Below, in pieces: positions 52,645 to 59,465 of a DNA stretch of 64,000 nt. The notes beneath the pieces are model-generated. The model was not told the origin of the DNA. It saw nothing but the letters and a program-made list of their open reading frames with translations, and made no database searches. The stretch's first letter is position 1. Each line of letters starts with the position of its first letter. The stretch is from Sulfobacillus acidophilus DSM 10332 (GTDB lineage Bacteria > Bacillota > Sulfobacillia > Sulfobacillales > Sulfobacillaceae). The translations under genes and the position numbers were made by a program. The DNA lies in NCBI GenBank assembly GCA_000237975.1, contig CP003179.1, forward strand, positions 3,130,270 through 3,194,269. Reading direction: 5' to 3'.

Positions 52645-55389
52645 TTATTTCGCCCCGGCAAAAGCCGGCACATAGCGTTCGGCTTCGGTCGGATGCGGCA
52701 ATAACAAGCCGGCCGCCGTCCGCGCCAAACGGGCCGGATCAAATTTCGTCACAATGGCGTCCGCCTCGACTTGCTGAGCCCGATCCGCGTGCCAATGCCC
52801 CGACAAGGACGTGTGCAGCAATACCGGAAAAGACGCCGTCCGGGGATCGTGTTTTAATTTCTGGGTCAAGGTGTACCCGTCGAGTTGGGGCATCTCCACA
52901 TCCAGCACAAACAATTGGGGCAACGGTTCGCCGGATTCCACGGCCGCCCATAACTCCTGGCCGTCGCCAAAACTCCGGACGGTGACCCCTAAGGGCTCTA
53001 AAGCCTTTTCCACTTGTTGTCGCGCCACCCGGGAATCGTCCGCCAACCAGATCATCTGTCCCCCCATAGAGGGTACGCCCACCTGATCCGGTGCGGGATA
53101 GGCCGGGGGAGCCACTTGCGCCAAAATCTGCTCAAAATCGATTAATTGAATCGGCCCCAGTTCCGCATGGTCAATGAGACCGGTAAACCGGCGATGATCC
53201 GCGTCCGCCGCATCCAAAACCGCCGGCAGCGGTTCCACCTGATCCCAGCTCACCCGGACCATCCGCTCCACTTGGTCGACGGGGAAAGCCTGCACCGTAT
53301 GGTTAAATTCGGTGATGACGATCACTCCCGCGGTTTCCGGCTGCGGCAACCCCAACGCGCGATGGAGACTGACCACCGGCACCGTTTGTCCGCGGAGACG
53401 CAAGAAGCCGTCCAGCCACGGATGCTGACCCGGCACTTCCGTCACGTCCGCCCCCGGCAGGACCTCTCGGGTCTTGTAGACGTTAATGCCGTAGCGTTGA
53501 CCGTCACTTAACTGAAAGACCAACAGTTCCATTTGATTCGATCCCGCTCGTAAGACCGGATCGTCATGCACCCGCTCCCGCTCGCCAATCGCGGTCGGAA
53601 CCAACCGCCGCACGTCGACCATGAGCGCGAGGCGGCCGTCGCCTAATAGAGCCACCCCACTCAACCAAGGCGTCATTGTCAACCCGGCCACCGGTTTGAC
53701 CACGACCTCTTGTTGCCCGCGCACCTCATCGACCGCTAATGCCGCTTGCGTACGGCCGTCCTTCACCCGTACTACGTAATGGTCTTCATGGCTAACTGTC
53801 GCATCAAGTAACGCCGCCAACGGATAAACCGGTAAGGGGGCCTCTTGATCCGGAACCGCCGGTCGGCCCAATGCACTGCCTAATGCCGCTTGTGCCGCTT
53901 CTTCAATCCGTTCCACGGTTAAAATCGGGAGCCCGACGGTCCAAGGCCCGGCCTCCACAATTAGGGCCGTCATAATCGCCATCGTCATGGGAAGCTCCAA
54001 ATGAAAGGTCGTCCCTTGCCCCGGCTGGCTTTCGACCGTAATGGTGCCATGGATTTCGTCTAAAAAGGCCCGGACCACATCCAACCCGACCCCCCGGCCG
54101 GATAAATCGGTGATTTGTTCGGCCGTCGACACGCCGGGACGGAATAACAGCTCGGATAGCTGATCCTCCGTGGCCCGTTGAGCCTCGTCGGCACTGAGCC
54201 AGCCTTGCCGCACCGCCTTGTCCCGCAGCCGGCCCCAATCAATCCCTCGCCCATCGTCCACAATCCGCACATGGACATGGCCTTGAGAGGCTTCCGCACT
54301 GAGCCGGATGGTCCCGGTTTCCGGTTTGCCGGCACGGGTTCGCGTCCCGGGGTCCTCAATCCCGTGATCACAGGCGTTCCGTAATAAATGCAGCAGCGGT
54401 TCATGCAATCGGTCCATCACCAGTCGATCCAGTTCCGTTTCCCCGCCGCTGGTTTCCAACCGAATTTTTTTATTGAGCTTTCGGGCAATATCATGGACCG
54501 CCCGCGGATATTGTTTAAATAAGGTGTCCAACGGCAGCATGCGCGCCCGTAGGGTTAAATCCTGCAGGTCGAGCGCCCGGCGACGCAAATGGTCCAGGAC
54601 CCCTTTGGTCGTGGGATCGGCTTGGGAGCCCCACAAATGATCCAACTGCCCATGATCTAACAAGAGTTCCCCTAAACCTTCCAGGATGCGTTCCAGCGTT
54701 TCCGCCCCAATGCGAATCGTCGCCTCCCGCCGTTCGGGGCTGGTAACTCCCTTGGCGGTGTCGCCCCCGTCGGGGCTGACCTCCCCTGCGCTCTGGGCAT
54801 CCGACACGTCGACAACGTCCAGGGCTTTGGCGTTCGCCAAATCGTCCACCATCATCAGCGCGGCCCGGACCGCCTCTTCCGATAGGGTCGAGGGAATGCC
54901 CAAACGGCTCACCGTACCGGTCCAGTCGGATAACCGCTCTAAGGGGGGATCGCTAACCGTACCCGGCGCCAAATCGTGAATGACCTGCCAAGCTTGGTAC
55001 GCTCGCACCCCAGGCATTGCGCATTGCGGCGACCACTCGAGTTCCCACCAGACTAACGGTTTTTCCACCGCCACGGCGCGCCCTTCCAACTCCGCCCGCA
55101 GCGCGTCCACCGTGTCCAACACCAACTGCTGGAGTTGGGGGGTCCACCGCCAATCGGGCCGTCCCCGACGATCCATGGCGTCCTCTAAGTGGTGCGCCCG
55201 CTCGACCCATTCCGTCAGGCCGAGCATGCCACCGGATCCCTTCAACGTATGCGCGGCTCGAAACATGGCGTCCAAGGGCGGTGGCGTATCCAGCGCGCCT
55301 TGTTCCAACGCATTTAATAACTCGGTGGCTTCCTCTAAAAACAAGCTGCGTTCTTCGTCCGAATCCCATTTGACTTCGTGAAATCGCAT
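52645..55389 (-). CDS. cheA: chemotaxis histidine kinase CheA with C-terminal CheV-like module
   Basis: A 914-residue fusion. Residues 10-105 are the Hpt domain, phosphorylated H47 in AAHTLKGSGG. About 225-300 is the dimerisation helix pair. About 305-465 is the ATPase (NACDHGIEDPG; VDDGRGID; GRGVGLDVV). 470-605 is the first CheW-like domain. 617-765 is a second one that reads like CheV (GINVYKTREVLPGADVTEVP; VITEFNH). 778-897 is a receiver with D830 (FVLDVEMPQLDGY). The last two parts form a full CheV. A separate P2 domain is not obvious. ATG 55389 has GGAGGG six bases ahead. Confidence 0.93.
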   Translation of the reverse strand: MRFHEVKWDSDEERSLFLEEATELLNALEQGALDTPPPLDAMFRAAHTLKGSGGMLGLTEWVERAHHLEDAMDRRGRPDWRWTPQLQQLVLDTVDALRAELEGRAVAVEKPLVWWELEWSPQCAMPGVRAYQAWQVIHDLAPGTVSDPPLERLSDWTGTVSRLGIPSTLSEEAVRAALMMVDDLANAKALDVVDVSDAQSAGEVSPDGGDTAKGVTSPERREATIRIGAETLERILEGLGELLLDHGQLDHLWGSQADPTTKGVLDHLRRRALDLQDLTLRARMLPLDTLFKQYPRAVHDIARKLNKKIRLETSGGETELDRLVMDRLHEPLLHLLRNACDHGIEDPGTRTRAGKPETGTIRLSAEASQGHVHVRIVDDGRGIDWGRLRDKAVRQGWLSADEAQRATEDQLSELLFRPGVSTAEQITDLSGRGVGLDVVRAFLDEIHGTITVESQPGQGTTFHLELPMTMAIMTALIVEAGPWTVGLPILTVERIEEAAQAALGSALGRPAVPDQEAPLPVYPLAALLDATVSHEDHYVVRVKDGRTQAALAVDEVRGQQEVVVKPVAGLTMTPWLSGVALLGDGRLALMVDVRRLVPTAIGERERVHDDPVLRAGSNQMELLVFQLSDGQRYGINVYKTREVLPGADVTEVPGQHPWLDGFLRLRGQTVPVVSLHRALGLPQPETAGVIVITEFNHTVQAFPVDQVERMVRVSWDQVEPLPAVLDAADADHRRFTGLIDHAELGPIQLIDFEQILAQVAPPAYPAPDQVGVPSMGGQMIWLADDSRVARQQVEKALEPLGVTVRSFGDGQELWAAVESGEPLPQLFVLDVEMPQLDGYTLTQKLKHDPRTASFPVLLHTSLSGHWHADRAQQVEADAIVTKFDPARLARTAAGLLLPHPTEAERYVPAFAGAK

Positions 55390-55403
55390 GTGACTCCCTC
55401 CCG

Positions 55404-55850
55404 TTAGGCGCCGGTAGCGTGAGCGACCGCCATATCCTGCAGTCGATCCGGCAAATCCTCGGCCCATTCCCATAACCATTCGTTCCCGGTCCGATAGGCG
55501 CGCGGGATCCACCCCGCCACATGCGTCGGCACCAATCCTTGCCACAATTCCGGTGGCAGAGGATTTTGCGGATTCCAGAGGCTTTCGACCTGATCCACGG
55601 CGACGAGTGCGGCTCCCCGATGTCCGCCCCAGCGAAGGGCCAACGTCACGTCTTCCGGCGGTAGATCGAGCGCCGGCCGTAACGTCAATACGGCCAGCGG
55701 CTGGCCGCGCACGACGGCGACCCCGGCGATCACGGACGGTGTGCGGGGAATCCGCGTGACCGACGGTTTCGCCAAGATCTCGGTAACGGATGACACCGGC
55801 GCACCAAACAAATAGGGACCCACCCGCACCGCGAGTAATTGCTCATTCAT
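55404..55850 (-). CDS. cheW: chemotaxis adaptor CheW
   Basis: A 148-residue CheW fold: LLAVRVGPYLFGAPVSSVTEI, SVIAGVAVVRGQPLAVLTLR and AALVAVDQVESL. It links receptors to CheA. The C-terminal 40 residues, rich in tryptophan, are longer than usual. GGGAGG lies eight bases before the ATG. It is the first che gene in the operon, and the 139 bases ahead of it show a small hairpin (CTGGA...TCCAG, about 55924-55940) but no clean promoter. Confidence 0.88.
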   Translation of the reverse strand: MNEQLLAVRVGPYLFGAPVSSVTEILAKPSVTRIPRTPSVIAGVAVVRGQPLAVLTLRPALDLPPEDVTLALRWGGHRGAALVAVDQVESLWNPQNPLPPELWQGLVPTHVAGWIPRAYRTGNEWLWEWAEDLPDRLQDMAVAHATGA

Positions 55851-55989
55851 GTTTTCAGCCTCCCGTTTACCATGCGTGACGAGTCAAACCGTCATGATGC
55901 CTAATTCGCCACGGAAGACTGGACTCCTTTTCCAGACTGTCGATATTTGTCACGAACCGGGGAAATATTGCCGAAAAACGACCAAAACC

Positions 55990-56820
55990 TCATAAAACGC
56001 CGATCACGGCACCCCATACGTGTTGATAGGCGAGCACCGGGACGGCCATGGCGATCGTCGGTTGGCCATGATCAGCGATCAGGCCGAGGGAAAACGGGTG
56101 GGTTTCTCCAGCTAACGGAGGCAGGTCAGGGGGTTTCACCAGCAATCGATCACGAGGCGGGTTTAACCAGCCGGCATGACGAATTAACGCGATCCAGGCG
56201 GCCGACGGATAAAGCCAGGTTTTCATGCGCTTTCCCTCACGTTGATCGGGGTGACAGGTACTGATCAGAAAGCCGTTCATATCCGCGAGTAGGCATTGCC
56301 GGAAGATACCGGAGCGTTCATGGGCGACCGACAACGCCGTCGACGCCTCATAATCGAGCGCGGCATCCCAGTCCATGGCGATATGGCCGGATAGATCCGG
56401 CGAAAGTCCCCATCGACTGAGGCTTTGGTGCGGTGACCGCCAATGATAGCGAAACCGAAGGGTTTCCCAAGGAACCCACGCTTCGGCCAGATGACGCGTA
56501 TAGCGGGCGACGTTTTCTAACGCATCGCGCCATCGCGGCACGTCCTCGGCCTCCGGACGGCTGAGCCATGTCGTCAGCTGAACGCTTTCGGCTGTCATCG
56601 AGCCTTGGGTCACATCATCCCAGCTGACCGGCAAGGGGCCCCTCGGTCGCTCGAGCCACAGGGCAATGCGACCATACATCTCCCGCCCGGCCGGGTTCTG
56701 TTGCCATCCCGCCCGTAATACGGCTAATTCCGCATAAGCTAAAGCGAACCGATCAGGGAAAACCGTCGTTCCCTCGGCGCTTGGAGGAAAAGCGGGGGAC
56801 GGGGCGTCGCCTGGACCCAT
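55990..56820 (-). CDS. protein of unknown function upstream of the che operon
   Basis: A 276-residue soluble protein, rich in tryptophan, without a recognised family. Residues 20-160 are mainly helical. Residues 165-276 (FRQCLLADMNGFLISTCHPD ... PTIAMAVPVLAYQHVWGAVI) have the strand order of a small sensory domain such as Cache or GAF, ending abruptly at the last strand. ATG 56820 has AAGGTGA eight bases ahead. It lies between the divergent receptor gene and cheW, so it may be a sensor or adaptor of chemotaxis. That is inference. Confidence 0.6.
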   Translation of the reverse strand: MGPGDAPSPAFPPSAEGTTVFPDRFALAYAELAVLRAGWQQNPAGREMYGRIALWLERPRGPLPVSWDDVTQGSMTAESVQLTTWLSRPEAEDVPRWRDALENVARYTRHLAEAWVPWETLRFRYHWRSPHQSLSRWGLSPDLSGHIAMDWDAALDYEASTALSVAHERSGIFRQCLLADMNGFLISTCHPDQREGKRMKTWLYPSAAWIALIRHAGWLNPPRDRLLVKPPDLPPLAGETHPFSLGLIADHGQPTIAMAVPVLAYQHVWGAVIGVL

Positions 56821-56891
56821 CGGTCTCGTCACCTTCAATGCTGTCTTGTACTTTCGGTTTAAGTCAGTTTGTCCCGGGCGGCTAGGGTATT

Positions 56892-57062: not shown

Positions 57063-58133
57063 ATGAACGAGCAGCTTCTCGCCGCGCTCAGTGGCCTTTT
57101 ACCGGGACTTCAACAAGCGTTTAGCGATGATACCGAAGTGATTTTGACCAGTACGGATCGTTTAATCCGGGTGTTGCCCGGTCGCCGGCTTGATTTGGGT
57201 GTTCGGGACGGAGGCCCGTTACCCGCCGGCACCGTTACCCAAAAAGCGGTCGAAGAAGGACGGCTCATGGTCGACACCCGAGACGCCTCCCAATTTGGCA
57301 TCCCCTATCGCGCCACTGCCATCCCGATTTTTGCGGACGACCAGGTCATCGGATGCTTGACCACGGTCACCTCGTTAGCACGGGAAGCCGAAATTCACAC
57401 GGCGGAAAACGAGCTTTGGCAACATGCCGATCATTTATCGTCCACGGCCGAAGAAACTCATGCGGCGATTCGGCATTTAAAGGAAACCTTTCAGCAGTTG
57501 GCCGCACAAACGGCCCACATTCAGCAGCAAATGGACGATGCCCGAACCCGGGCTACCGAAGGCCACCAGACGGTGGACCGGTTGGCCGGACATACCCAAA
57601 GTTTGCGCCAAACCATGAAGGCCGTAACGGACGCCCGCGCCGCCCTGGAAGAACAAATGCAGGCGATTTCCCAGTCCACGTCCTTGATTGAGGATATTGC
57701 CCGGCAGACCAACCTCTTAGCCCTGAACGCGGCCATCGAAGCCGCACGGGCCGGCGATGCGGGGCGAGGATTCGCCGTCGTGGCGGAGGAAGTGAAGAAG
57801 TTGTCGGAGGGATCCCAAAGAGCCACCCGGCATATCGAAGAAACCATTCGGGGAATTGATACGCGTCTGACCGAACTCCGCCAGGCCCTAAAAAACGCCG
57901 ACATTCTCCAAACCGAAGGAGCCGATCTGACCGAAGCGGTCACCCGCTCTTTTGGTGTCATCGGCGACACGGTGGTCACCGGGGCAACCGCCACCGACGC
58001 CATTCATCAACAGATTGAAGCGGCCACCAGTGCCATTGAACAGCTGACGGCCGCTGCCGAGTTGACCGCTCGCCAAGCCGCCGAGGTGACAGATCTGGCC
58101 ACCCGGTTAAAAGAATCCCGTAGCATGAAGTAG
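57063..58133 (+). CDS. soluble methyl-accepting chemotaxis protein
   Basis: A 356-residue cytoplasmic receptor with no membrane helix. Residues 1-110 form a small PAS/GAF-like sensor ([36 protein letters not shown]). Residues 115-350 form the coiled-coil signalling domain with the tip [20 protein letters not shown] at 211-230 and [18 protein letters not shown] after it. The tip is nearly identical to that of the HemAT-like receptor at 10.7 kb, so both should feed the same CheA array. AAGGAGGAG lies eight bases before the ATG. The ligand is unknown; a cytoplasmic metabolite or redox state is likely. Confidence 0.9.
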
Positions 58134-58154
58134 CCTGTCCGATTTCCGTCATAA

Positions 58155-58211
58155 AAAATCGCCTCAGGAGAATGGATGTGGATGGGATCCATTCTTCCAA
58201 GGCGATTTTCT
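58155..58211. terminator. bidirectional terminator between receptor and microprotein genes
   Basis: Outer arms AAAATCGCC/GGCGATTTT and inner arms around GAATGGAT/ATCCATTC make a long stem. The plus strand ends in TTTT, and the minus strand ends in six T (plus-strand A-run at 58153-58158), so it serves both neighbours. Confidence 0.8.
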
Positions 58212-58228
58212 ATGGGACCCAGCCGACG

Positions 58229-58318
58229 TTATGCGTTTTCCTCTTGGTTAAACCATTCCCGCATCACGTCAAACCATTCGTCTTGCCGTTCTTGTTCCGG
58301 CTCCCGCACCTCATCCAT
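58229..58318 (-). CDS. 29-residue acidic microprotein
   Basis: A 29-codon frame, ATG to TAA, with AGGAGGTG seven bases ahead of the ATG, an optimal ribosome site. The product begins MDEVREPEQERQ and contains two WF pairs (EWFDVMREWFNQ): acidic, amphipathic and helix-forming. A TACAAT sits upstream at about 58355 on the minus strand, and a strong terminator follows 18 bases after the stop. So this 318-base gap between annotated genes has all the parts of a small gene. Function unknown; could be a regulator that binds a partner through the tryptophan face. Confidence 0.6.
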   Translation of the reverse strand: MDEVREPEQERQDEWFDVMREWFNQEENA

Positions 58319-58451
58319 CGTTACGCACCTCCTGGGAATCCGCTTTCCCTTATTGTAGAAACGGGTACCCCAATCGTCGCCTGGATGACCGTGAAGGGTT
58401 TATATTTTATCCTGAATCGCAATATTTGCCGGGTCAACGACAGTCGATAAG

Positions 58452-58934
58452 CTAGGGAATGCTTGTTTCACTATTGAAACACCAATCTTGGAACTGGCCA
58501 CGAATTTGCGCCATGGCCCGATCCGCGACCCGGACTTCACTGCCCCATCCCCAAATGATACCAAGCCCAATCAATTTCCACGTCGGATAGGGTTCCAACA
58601 CCGCCTTGATCGCCCGGTATAAGCGGGCTCGCATCTGTTCTTGCACGTCCGGACGGTCCATGGGTAACCCGTACCAATACCCCATTTCCGCCATCCACCC
58701 ATATAACAAGGCCAGCCAGACGGGCCCGCCGATCACCGGCCCCAAAGGGCCGGCCAAGGCCGCCAATCCGCTTTGCAACCAAAGCCGTCGCCGCCATTTA
58801 AGGCCCGTTTGACTCACTTTCATTTCCCGTTCCCGACGGTCGCCCGCCCGAGCCCGGTCTTTCGGCGGTCGCCAAAATAGGTTTTGTACCCGATGGCCCA
58901 TCCGATCGCATATCGGACTATATTCCCATCGCAT
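58452..58934 (-). CDS. membrane-associated protein of unknown function
   Basis: A 160-residue protein. Residues 1-55 are basic and soluble. The hydrophobic stretch GLAALAGPLGPVIGGPVWLALLYGWM (about 71-96) could form one or two membrane helices, and a second one lies near GLGIIWGWGSE. No family recognised. The ATG at 58934 has AAGGGG eight bases ahead; the frame runs further upstream but without support. It is divergent from the next gene, and 11-base direct repeats span its start. Confidence 0.55.
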   Translation of the reverse strand: MRWEYSPICDRMGHRVQNLFWRPPKDRARAGDRREREMKVSQTGLKWRRRLWLQSGLAALAGPLGPVIGGPVWLALLYGWMAEMGYWYGLPMDRPDVQEQMRARLYRAIKAVLEPYPTWKLIGLGIIWGWGSEVRVADRAMAQIRGQFQDWCFNSETSIP

Positions 58935-58938
58935 ATCG
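58905..58938. repeat. 11-base direct repeat at the start of the unknown membrane gene
   Basis: ATCGCATATCG occurs at 58905-58915 and again at 58928-58938, 23 bases (about two helical turns) apart. One copy covers the start codon; the copies fall in different reading frames. This spacing could suit a protein binding at the translation start. Confidence 0.5.
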
Positions 58939-59027
58939 AACGCCCCTTCTCGTGAAACAATAAGCCAAACGCGCGGTAAAGGTGCGTCGGATACGCCGTG
59001 GTAAGATAAAAGCCGGAGGCGATACCT

Positions 59028-59465
59028 ATGGGATTTGGCCCTAAACTTCCGGATGTCGAATCCGGCGTCGAAGCGGTCACACATTTAATAACTCTGTTAT
59101 ATCCCGAGCACGCGACGCCTCGCGCCCTCGAACTGCTCGGCCATACCACCCGGGCTATTCTGGCGGCGAACGTGCCGCTTACTTTTGCGACTCTGGATCG
59201 CTTTTGGCGTGACGGCGAATGGCGGCAGTGGGTTATGGGTCGATGGCGCGCACCGCTCGAAGGACCTTGGAATGGTTTAGGACCCGCGTCCTTGGCTCCG
59301 GACACCTTGGATGCCGATTTCGGCTGGATCGTGGCCGACCGCCTGCGGACCCTGAGAGAATCGGCCCTCAACGAAGAGGCGGCCGAACCTGAAGAACCGT
59401 TTACGGTTCATTGGGATCGTCCAGAAAATACTCCACCCGGGGAGGACGAATCCGAGCGTCAATAA
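59028..59465 (+). CDS. protein of unknown function
   Basis: A 145-residue soluble protein, helical in its first two thirds (VESGVEAVTHLITLLYPEHA; TRAILAANVPLTFATLDRFW), with an acidic C-terminal tail rich in glutamate and proline. No family recognised. GGAGG lies eight bases before the ATG. Its last 65 bases overlap the convergent ligase-like gene in another frame, which makes one of the two C-termini less certain. Confidence 0.6.
   Translation: MGFGPKLPDVESGVEAVTHLITLLYPEHATPRALELLGHTTRAILAANVPLTFATLDRFWRDGEWRQWVMGRWRAPLEGPWNGLGPASLAPDTLDADFGWIVADRLRTLRESALNEEAAEPEEPFTVHWDRPENTPPGEDESERQ

Follow-up and report, generated by a model that had tools for sequence, protein, structure and literature searches.

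A conserved Trp-rich microprotein as a putative member of a LytSR central-carbon regulon in Sulfobacillus and its relatives

A frame of only 29 codons in the genome of Sulfobacillus acidophilus DSM 10332, lying in a gap beside a chemoreceptor gene, raises two questions, namely, whether so short a frame encodes a protein and, if it does, in which process this protein takes part. Proteins of this size are overlooked by gene finders. In the window, that is, the whole stretch of 64,000 nucleotides analysed here, the locus comprises the following features.

57063-58133, convergent with the microprotein gene: chemoreceptor gene, flanking the gap
58151-58214, no strand assigned: long hairpin carrying a T run on either strand (found by folding; extent read from the DNA)
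58229-58318, minus strand: microprotein gene, 29 codons, core WFDVMREWF (from the frame, its homologues and codon differences)
58327-58333, minus strand: ribosome-binding site AGGAGGT (read in the DNA; matched in 32 of 33 loci, in one of them merely as GGGGG)
58352-58357, minus strand: -10 element TACAAT, at -39 to -34
58452-59084, minus strand: ORF of 210 codons, unknown family (cluster C0), the upstream flank of the gap

The minus-strand frame translates as MDEVREPEQERQDEWFDVMREWFNQEENA. The surroundings are those that the original prediction had described: the gap spans 318 bases from the end of the chemoreceptor gene (58133) to the next upstream ORF (58452), AGGAGGT stands 15 to 9 nt 5' of the ATG, TACAAT occupies the place of the possible -10, and the announced T-run terminator corresponds to the long hairpin and T run after the stop codon (z -2.93; 2 of 200 shuffles fold equally well). 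This hairpin is the predicted terminator of the microprotein gene. Since it is symmetric, it is able to end the convergent chemoreceptor gene as well, and probably does so. A simple sigma-70 scan found no promoter at the locus because the site has no -35.

Many ORFs of such a length are random, and a frame this short could have arisen by chance in an empty gap, a reading that is refuted by conservation and to which we attach practically no weight. An initial search gave matches at E up to 10 in 34 of 61 genomes, mostly one short frame each; of the 60 genomes besides the window's own, 25 had homologues with E values between 2e-7 and 4e-3. A profile search covering 154 genomes of the class gave matches at E 0.0012 or better in 32 of the 42 that belong to the window's order; four class-level matches outside the order (E 0.01-0.1) were read and judged to be chance, not homologues. 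A diverged homologue right beside lytS in genome G008, missed by the profile, was found by reading the DNA, which brings the total for the order to 33 of 42 genomes. Sampling 398 genomes of the phylum yielded two matches, both within the order, and no homologue in the 396 others. One scan identified relatives by name: Sulfobacillus thermotolerans Kr1, bins labelled S. benefaciens and S. acidophilus, and numerous bins with no name beyond Bacillota bacterium. Searches of Pfam, NCBIfam and PDB sequences returned no credible relative (best E 0.017, 0.16 and 0.12, respectively), and none was found in viral contigs and plasmid records, which gives no sign of a phage- or plasmid-borne gene.

The profile alignment has 31 rows, L050 (G003) being excluded for an in-frame stop and the lack of a core; W15, F16, R20 and W22 are invariant in it and D17, V18 and M19 nearly so, with both flanks free-running. 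Across the nine core codons (WFDVMREWF) of the 24 loci of family f1, to which the window belongs, 883 synonymous and 89 non-synonymous differences were counted, these being pairwise counts from pairs that are not independent, where random single changes of the core consensus would be expected to give 11 synonymous to 70 non-synonymous. The original prediction had stated that it would be refuted by a lack of conservation of the frame or of its ribosome site in close relatives, and had called for a synonymous-site check; both features are conserved across the order, and the synonymous excess is strong. A terminator-like hairpin, in some cases weak, follows the frame in 26 of 33 loci. On this comparative evidence, the 29-codon frame encodes a real protein of a previously unclassified family, which is confined to one order of acidophilic bacteria.

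The members of this family have 25 to 58 residues and are mostly acidic, and their sole strongly conserved part is the helix W-F-[DE]-V-[MT]-R-x-W-[FW]. For one homologue, AlphaFold2 places a helix over residues 4-25 (mean pLDDT 70.3, pTM 0.34), and the helical moment is high yet marginal, being equalled by 5% of shuffles. The microprotein is best described as the predicted cytosolic product of a short monocistronic gene, with a conserved part that is predicted to form an amphipathic helix. It had been proposed that two aromatic motifs on a helix make it a binding peptide. The helix stands, with modest confidence, and carries both WF motifs, so that its WF-x3-R-x-WF face may dock on a protein; binding itself is an inference.

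The chemoreceptor gene, to which the original prediction had drawn attention, lies beside the microprotein gene at the window's locus only and is absent from every other locus compared; its proximity is incidental, no link between the two is supported, and an obligate partnership was rejected. Just past it lies a compact chemotaxis cluster (52645-56838, minus strand) with a CheA-like ORF, a CheW-like gene and a gene for a 282-aa protein of unknown family. The 210-aa C0 protein was likewise rejected as an obligate partner, as its gene, which precedes the microprotein gene in most f1 loci (a cluster of 23 loci), is not beside it in f2, f3 and g9. C0 appears membrane-like and had no match in 14 other genomes tested, including LytSR-less ones; it is possibly a lineage-specific partner. 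A role as helper of a CstA-type transporter, in the manner of a YbdD/YjiX-like accessory protein, had come to mind because WFDVMR loosely resembles YVEHMR in YbdD; it was discarded, as CstA is absent from all 42 genomes.

The region upstream of the gene is more unusual than the peptide itself. It contains direct-repeat half-sites with the consensus GCCATTCACC, which in the window are arranged as follows.

58390-58399, minus strand: promoter-proximal half-site ACCCTTCACG, its TT 38 nt before the T of TACAAT
58411-58420, minus strand: second half-site GCGATTCAGG, 21 bp farther upstream
58432-58441, minus strand: third half-site GTCGTTGACC, lying 42 bp upstream from the promoter-proximal one

Three half-sites with TT positions 21 bp apart are present in f1 (24 loci) and f3 (one locus), and the last TT of the array lies 38-40 nt before the -10 despite a variable leader length. 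Among TTC[AG]C pairs in the 24 f1 upstream regions, 30 have a spacing of 21 and 11 a spacing of 42, while every other spacing occurs at most twice and 1000 shuffles never gave more than two pairs at any spacing. A matrix trained on f1 ranked the predicted offset first of 199 positions in three of four f2 loci (L047, L049 and L051, mutual close relatives), the site standing 38 nt before a TAGGAT-like -10; the fourth, L046, fails the array rule under this matrix. Good arrays are present at L045 and L043, and those of g9 are irregular. Within the 64-kb window, the array of the microprotein gene scores 24.9 and the next best match 10.5. Two simpler descriptions of the array were abandoned: an exact pattern of two repeats plus -10 gave 17 matches versus 6 for a reversed control in eight genomes, mostly chance, and a pattern of the repeats alone was unspecific.

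A section of PMC4847170 describes the sites of LytTR response regulators as a pair of repeats, each 9-11 nt long, separated by 11-13 nt, the YpdB repeats printed there being 21 bp apart, and a passage of PMC4227749 places AgrA sites at about -60 from the start. With 10-nt half-sites and 11-nt spacers upstream of the promoter, the layout of the microprotein array is, as far as sequence can tell, that of LytTR-type sites. A LytTR search in the order identified exactly one such regulator in 32 of 42 genomes and never more than one per genome. Among the 34 genomes that are at least 90% complete, 27 have both regulator and microprotein, seven have neither and none is discordant (Fisher 1.9e-7); by the profile alone, 26 have both, one the regulator only, none the microprotein only and seven neither (Fisher 1.5e-6), both values ignoring the relatedness of the genomes. 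The single exception in the latter count is G008, resolved by the homologue beside lytS, and all 27 of these microprotein carriers thus possess the regulator. Over all 42 genomes, five are discordant, all of them 59-87% complete: G033 and G013 have LytTR and no microprotein, and G032, G027 and G024 the reverse. As the seven genomes lacking both are spread over four genera, the agreement probably does not stem from one event.

Gene order and phylogeny point in the same direction. All seven genomes with an f2-type LytSR (five f2, two g9) have the microprotein gene and lytS side by side in divergent orientation, and in f1 and f3 the two are far apart or on different contigs, as in the window's genome (lytSR at 714 kb versus 3188 kb). 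In the LytR and LytS trees, which have some long branches and in which the placement of G041 is unsure, the genus g9, assigned to f1 by taxonomy, groups with f2 at 100/100, and f3 groups with f1. The f2-type microprotein W-F-x3-R-x-W-W is found in six of the seven genomes with an f2-type LytSR, including g9, G041 having WF, and all 25 f1 and f3 loci end in WF; since g9 has both the f2-type LytSR and the f2-type microprotein, the two types go together. The LytTR and His_kinase domains of regulator and kinase are Pfam results. By eye, a cytosolic sensor part and a short membrane part of two helices can be made out in f1 LytS, and no membrane part in f2 LytS, which shows a GAF domain; this domain layout suggests that the LytS signal probably lies inside the cell.

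Another factor, lost together with LytTR, might instead bind the array, given that AraC-type activators also use 21-bp repeats. Part of PMC5626966 moreover calls the B. subtilis LytT site palindromic, and the LytTR-array link is a putative one drawn from sequence. Against such a factor speak the presence of at most one LytTR per genome with a phylogenetic profile matching that of the microprotein, the divergent adjacency with lytS in seven genomes and the LytTR-type layout of the array, so that we consider it rather unlikely.

With regard to other targets, a sequence-only array model (R1), based on 17 of the 25 f1/f3 promoters, was searched in 42 genomes. For most f1 carriers its top-scoring site is the microprotein promoter (E between 2e-12 and 6e-8 in 21, weaker or missed in others), followed by sites ahead of malate synthase (E 2e-6 in G000, 1e-5 in G018, weaker elsewhere) and of an aldolase-phosphoribulokinase operon. 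The malate synthase and phosphoribulokinase-family identities are from Pfam, and the names aldolase and transhydrogenase from reading the sequences. Measured against 878 background tiles, 14 of 23 malate synthase loci have an upstream array that scores above the 99th percentile, the other nine having no clear array; for phosphoribulokinase, where the search was widened to 1450 nt, the figure is 14 of 16 loci. A -10-like TAnnnT follows at 38-39 nt in all 12 malate synthase promoters examined of the 14. In G000, the array sites L196, L201 and L214 stand before the genes for malate synthase, before the aldolase-phosphoribulokinase operon and, with weaker scores, before those for NAD(P) transhydrogenase, and constitute a candidate carbon regulon; membership of the transhydrogenase operon is only suggested, by three weaker matches (G000, G028 and G025). 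A second, spacer-masked model (R2), using 16 of 23 prepared rows, was insensitive, recovering four microprotein promoters in 22 genomes, and is uninformative on f2 targets. None of the seven genomes lacking LytSR and microprotein has malate synthase or phosphoribulokinase. By these searches, seven carriers (G008, G038, G020, G040, G039, G034 and G024) also have neither enzyme, which makes the microprotein the more constant companion of LytSR.

Taken together, these data make it likely, in our judgement, that LytSR governs a central-carbon regulon of which the microprotein is the invariant member, and that the microprotein probably docks its Trp/Phe helix on a protein. The LytS kinase and its partner LytTR regulator would sense a cytosolic carbon signal, upon which the regulator would bind the array and activate the microprotein gene together with glyoxylate and Calvin genes; with less certainty, the helix of the product would dock into a groove of a conserved cytosolic protein. 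Such a circuit would resemble B. subtilis LytST-pftAB and E. coli BtsSR-btsT and YpdAB-yhjX in combining a LytS-type kinase, a LytTR regulator and direct-repeat sites (21 bp apart for YpdB), and in having few targets linked to carbon metabolism. Pyruvate transporters are the targets described for B. subtilis and E. coli in sections of PMC5626966 and PMC5552118, the former giving one operon only for B. subtilis. Here, in contrast, the invariant target would be a soluble microprotein, malate synthase and Calvin genes would be targets beside it, and CstA, the BtsT family, is lacking.

On which protein the helix would dock is the point on which the readings diverge. LytS or LytR itself, under feedback or set-point control, is a plausible target that we favour tentatively, and a central-carbon enzyme a possible one, the former being slightly likelier because the microprotein persists in genomes without malate synthase and phosphoribulokinase and because its type follows that of LytSR, not the species. 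MgrB and SafA are small membrane proteins made by a two-component system on which they act back, and the microprotein would likewise be a short protein controlled by the system that it may tune; unlike these membrane peptides, it is acidic and predicted to be cytosolic, and feedback would have to be presumed. In its boldest form, which we put forward with some reserve, this reading holds that an undescribed, order-wide microprotein is an obligate third component of LytSR, made by the regulator and moving with LytSR as one module, whose WF-helix, by docking on LytS, LytR or a single shared enzyme, would decide whether carbon flow in mixotrophic acidophiles is autotrophic, glyoxylate-based or heterotrophic. 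The microprotein might instead leave LytSR alone and inhibit or steer a single central-carbon enzyme that every carrier possesses, much as CP12 binds phosphoribulokinase/GAPDH. Like CP12, it is a small acidic protein co-regulated with carbon fixation, as the array common to its own promoter and those of malate synthase and the phosphoribulokinase operon suggests, and it is soluble and helical by prediction; it differs from CP12 in having no conserved cysteines and no detected sequence relation, and in being kept where phosphoribulokinase is absent. The seven carriers devoid of both enzymes imply that neither is the general target, and the link between microprotein type and LytSR type also argues against an enzyme effector, which we regard as a serious candidate short of probable.

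A regulatory leader peptide or dual-function small RNA, with tryptophan sensed by the RNA or through its translation and the peptide as a by-product, would account for two Trp codons, a short transcript and a strong hairpin. A transcription-attenuation leader would also require a conserved co-directional biosynthetic gene after the terminator, and in the neighbourhoods compared no co-directional gene follows in a conserved position; third codon positions vary freely, residues besides Trp are fixed too, and no Rfam family scored above threshold, which leaves this reading barely credible. Peptide signalling is a frequent role of LytTR regulators, and a short, conserved, Trp-rich core would suit a secreted signal or a modified-peptide (RiPP) precursor. 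This we hold to be very improbable, as the microprotein has no signal sequence, LytS has no apparent outside sensor and the neighbourhoods have no maturase in common.

Open-licence literature, judged by titles and opening lines, contained no paper describing this microprotein/LytSR circuit in Sulfobacillus or a LytTR regulator with malate synthase, and no named regulator of carbon-route choice in Sulfobacillus was found there. If the LytSR reading is true, it provides a concrete regulon and a testable microprotein for this choice in Sulfobacillus-type mixotrophs, and extends the range of what LytSR systems control beyond pyruvate transporters, to a small protein dedicated to the circuit. In other respects, the lytSR genes often follow a nicotinamidase/isochorismatase-family gene in f1 and f3 (13 of 20 loci, e.g., L146, G000:C1:709000-721000), hinting at a link with NAD metabolism. 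Two f2 genomes carry a second, diverged copy of the microprotein gene (L048, G034:C61; L254, G038:C32), and about 3 kb away from the G034 copy is a gene whose sequence suggests an acetate/succinate transporter.
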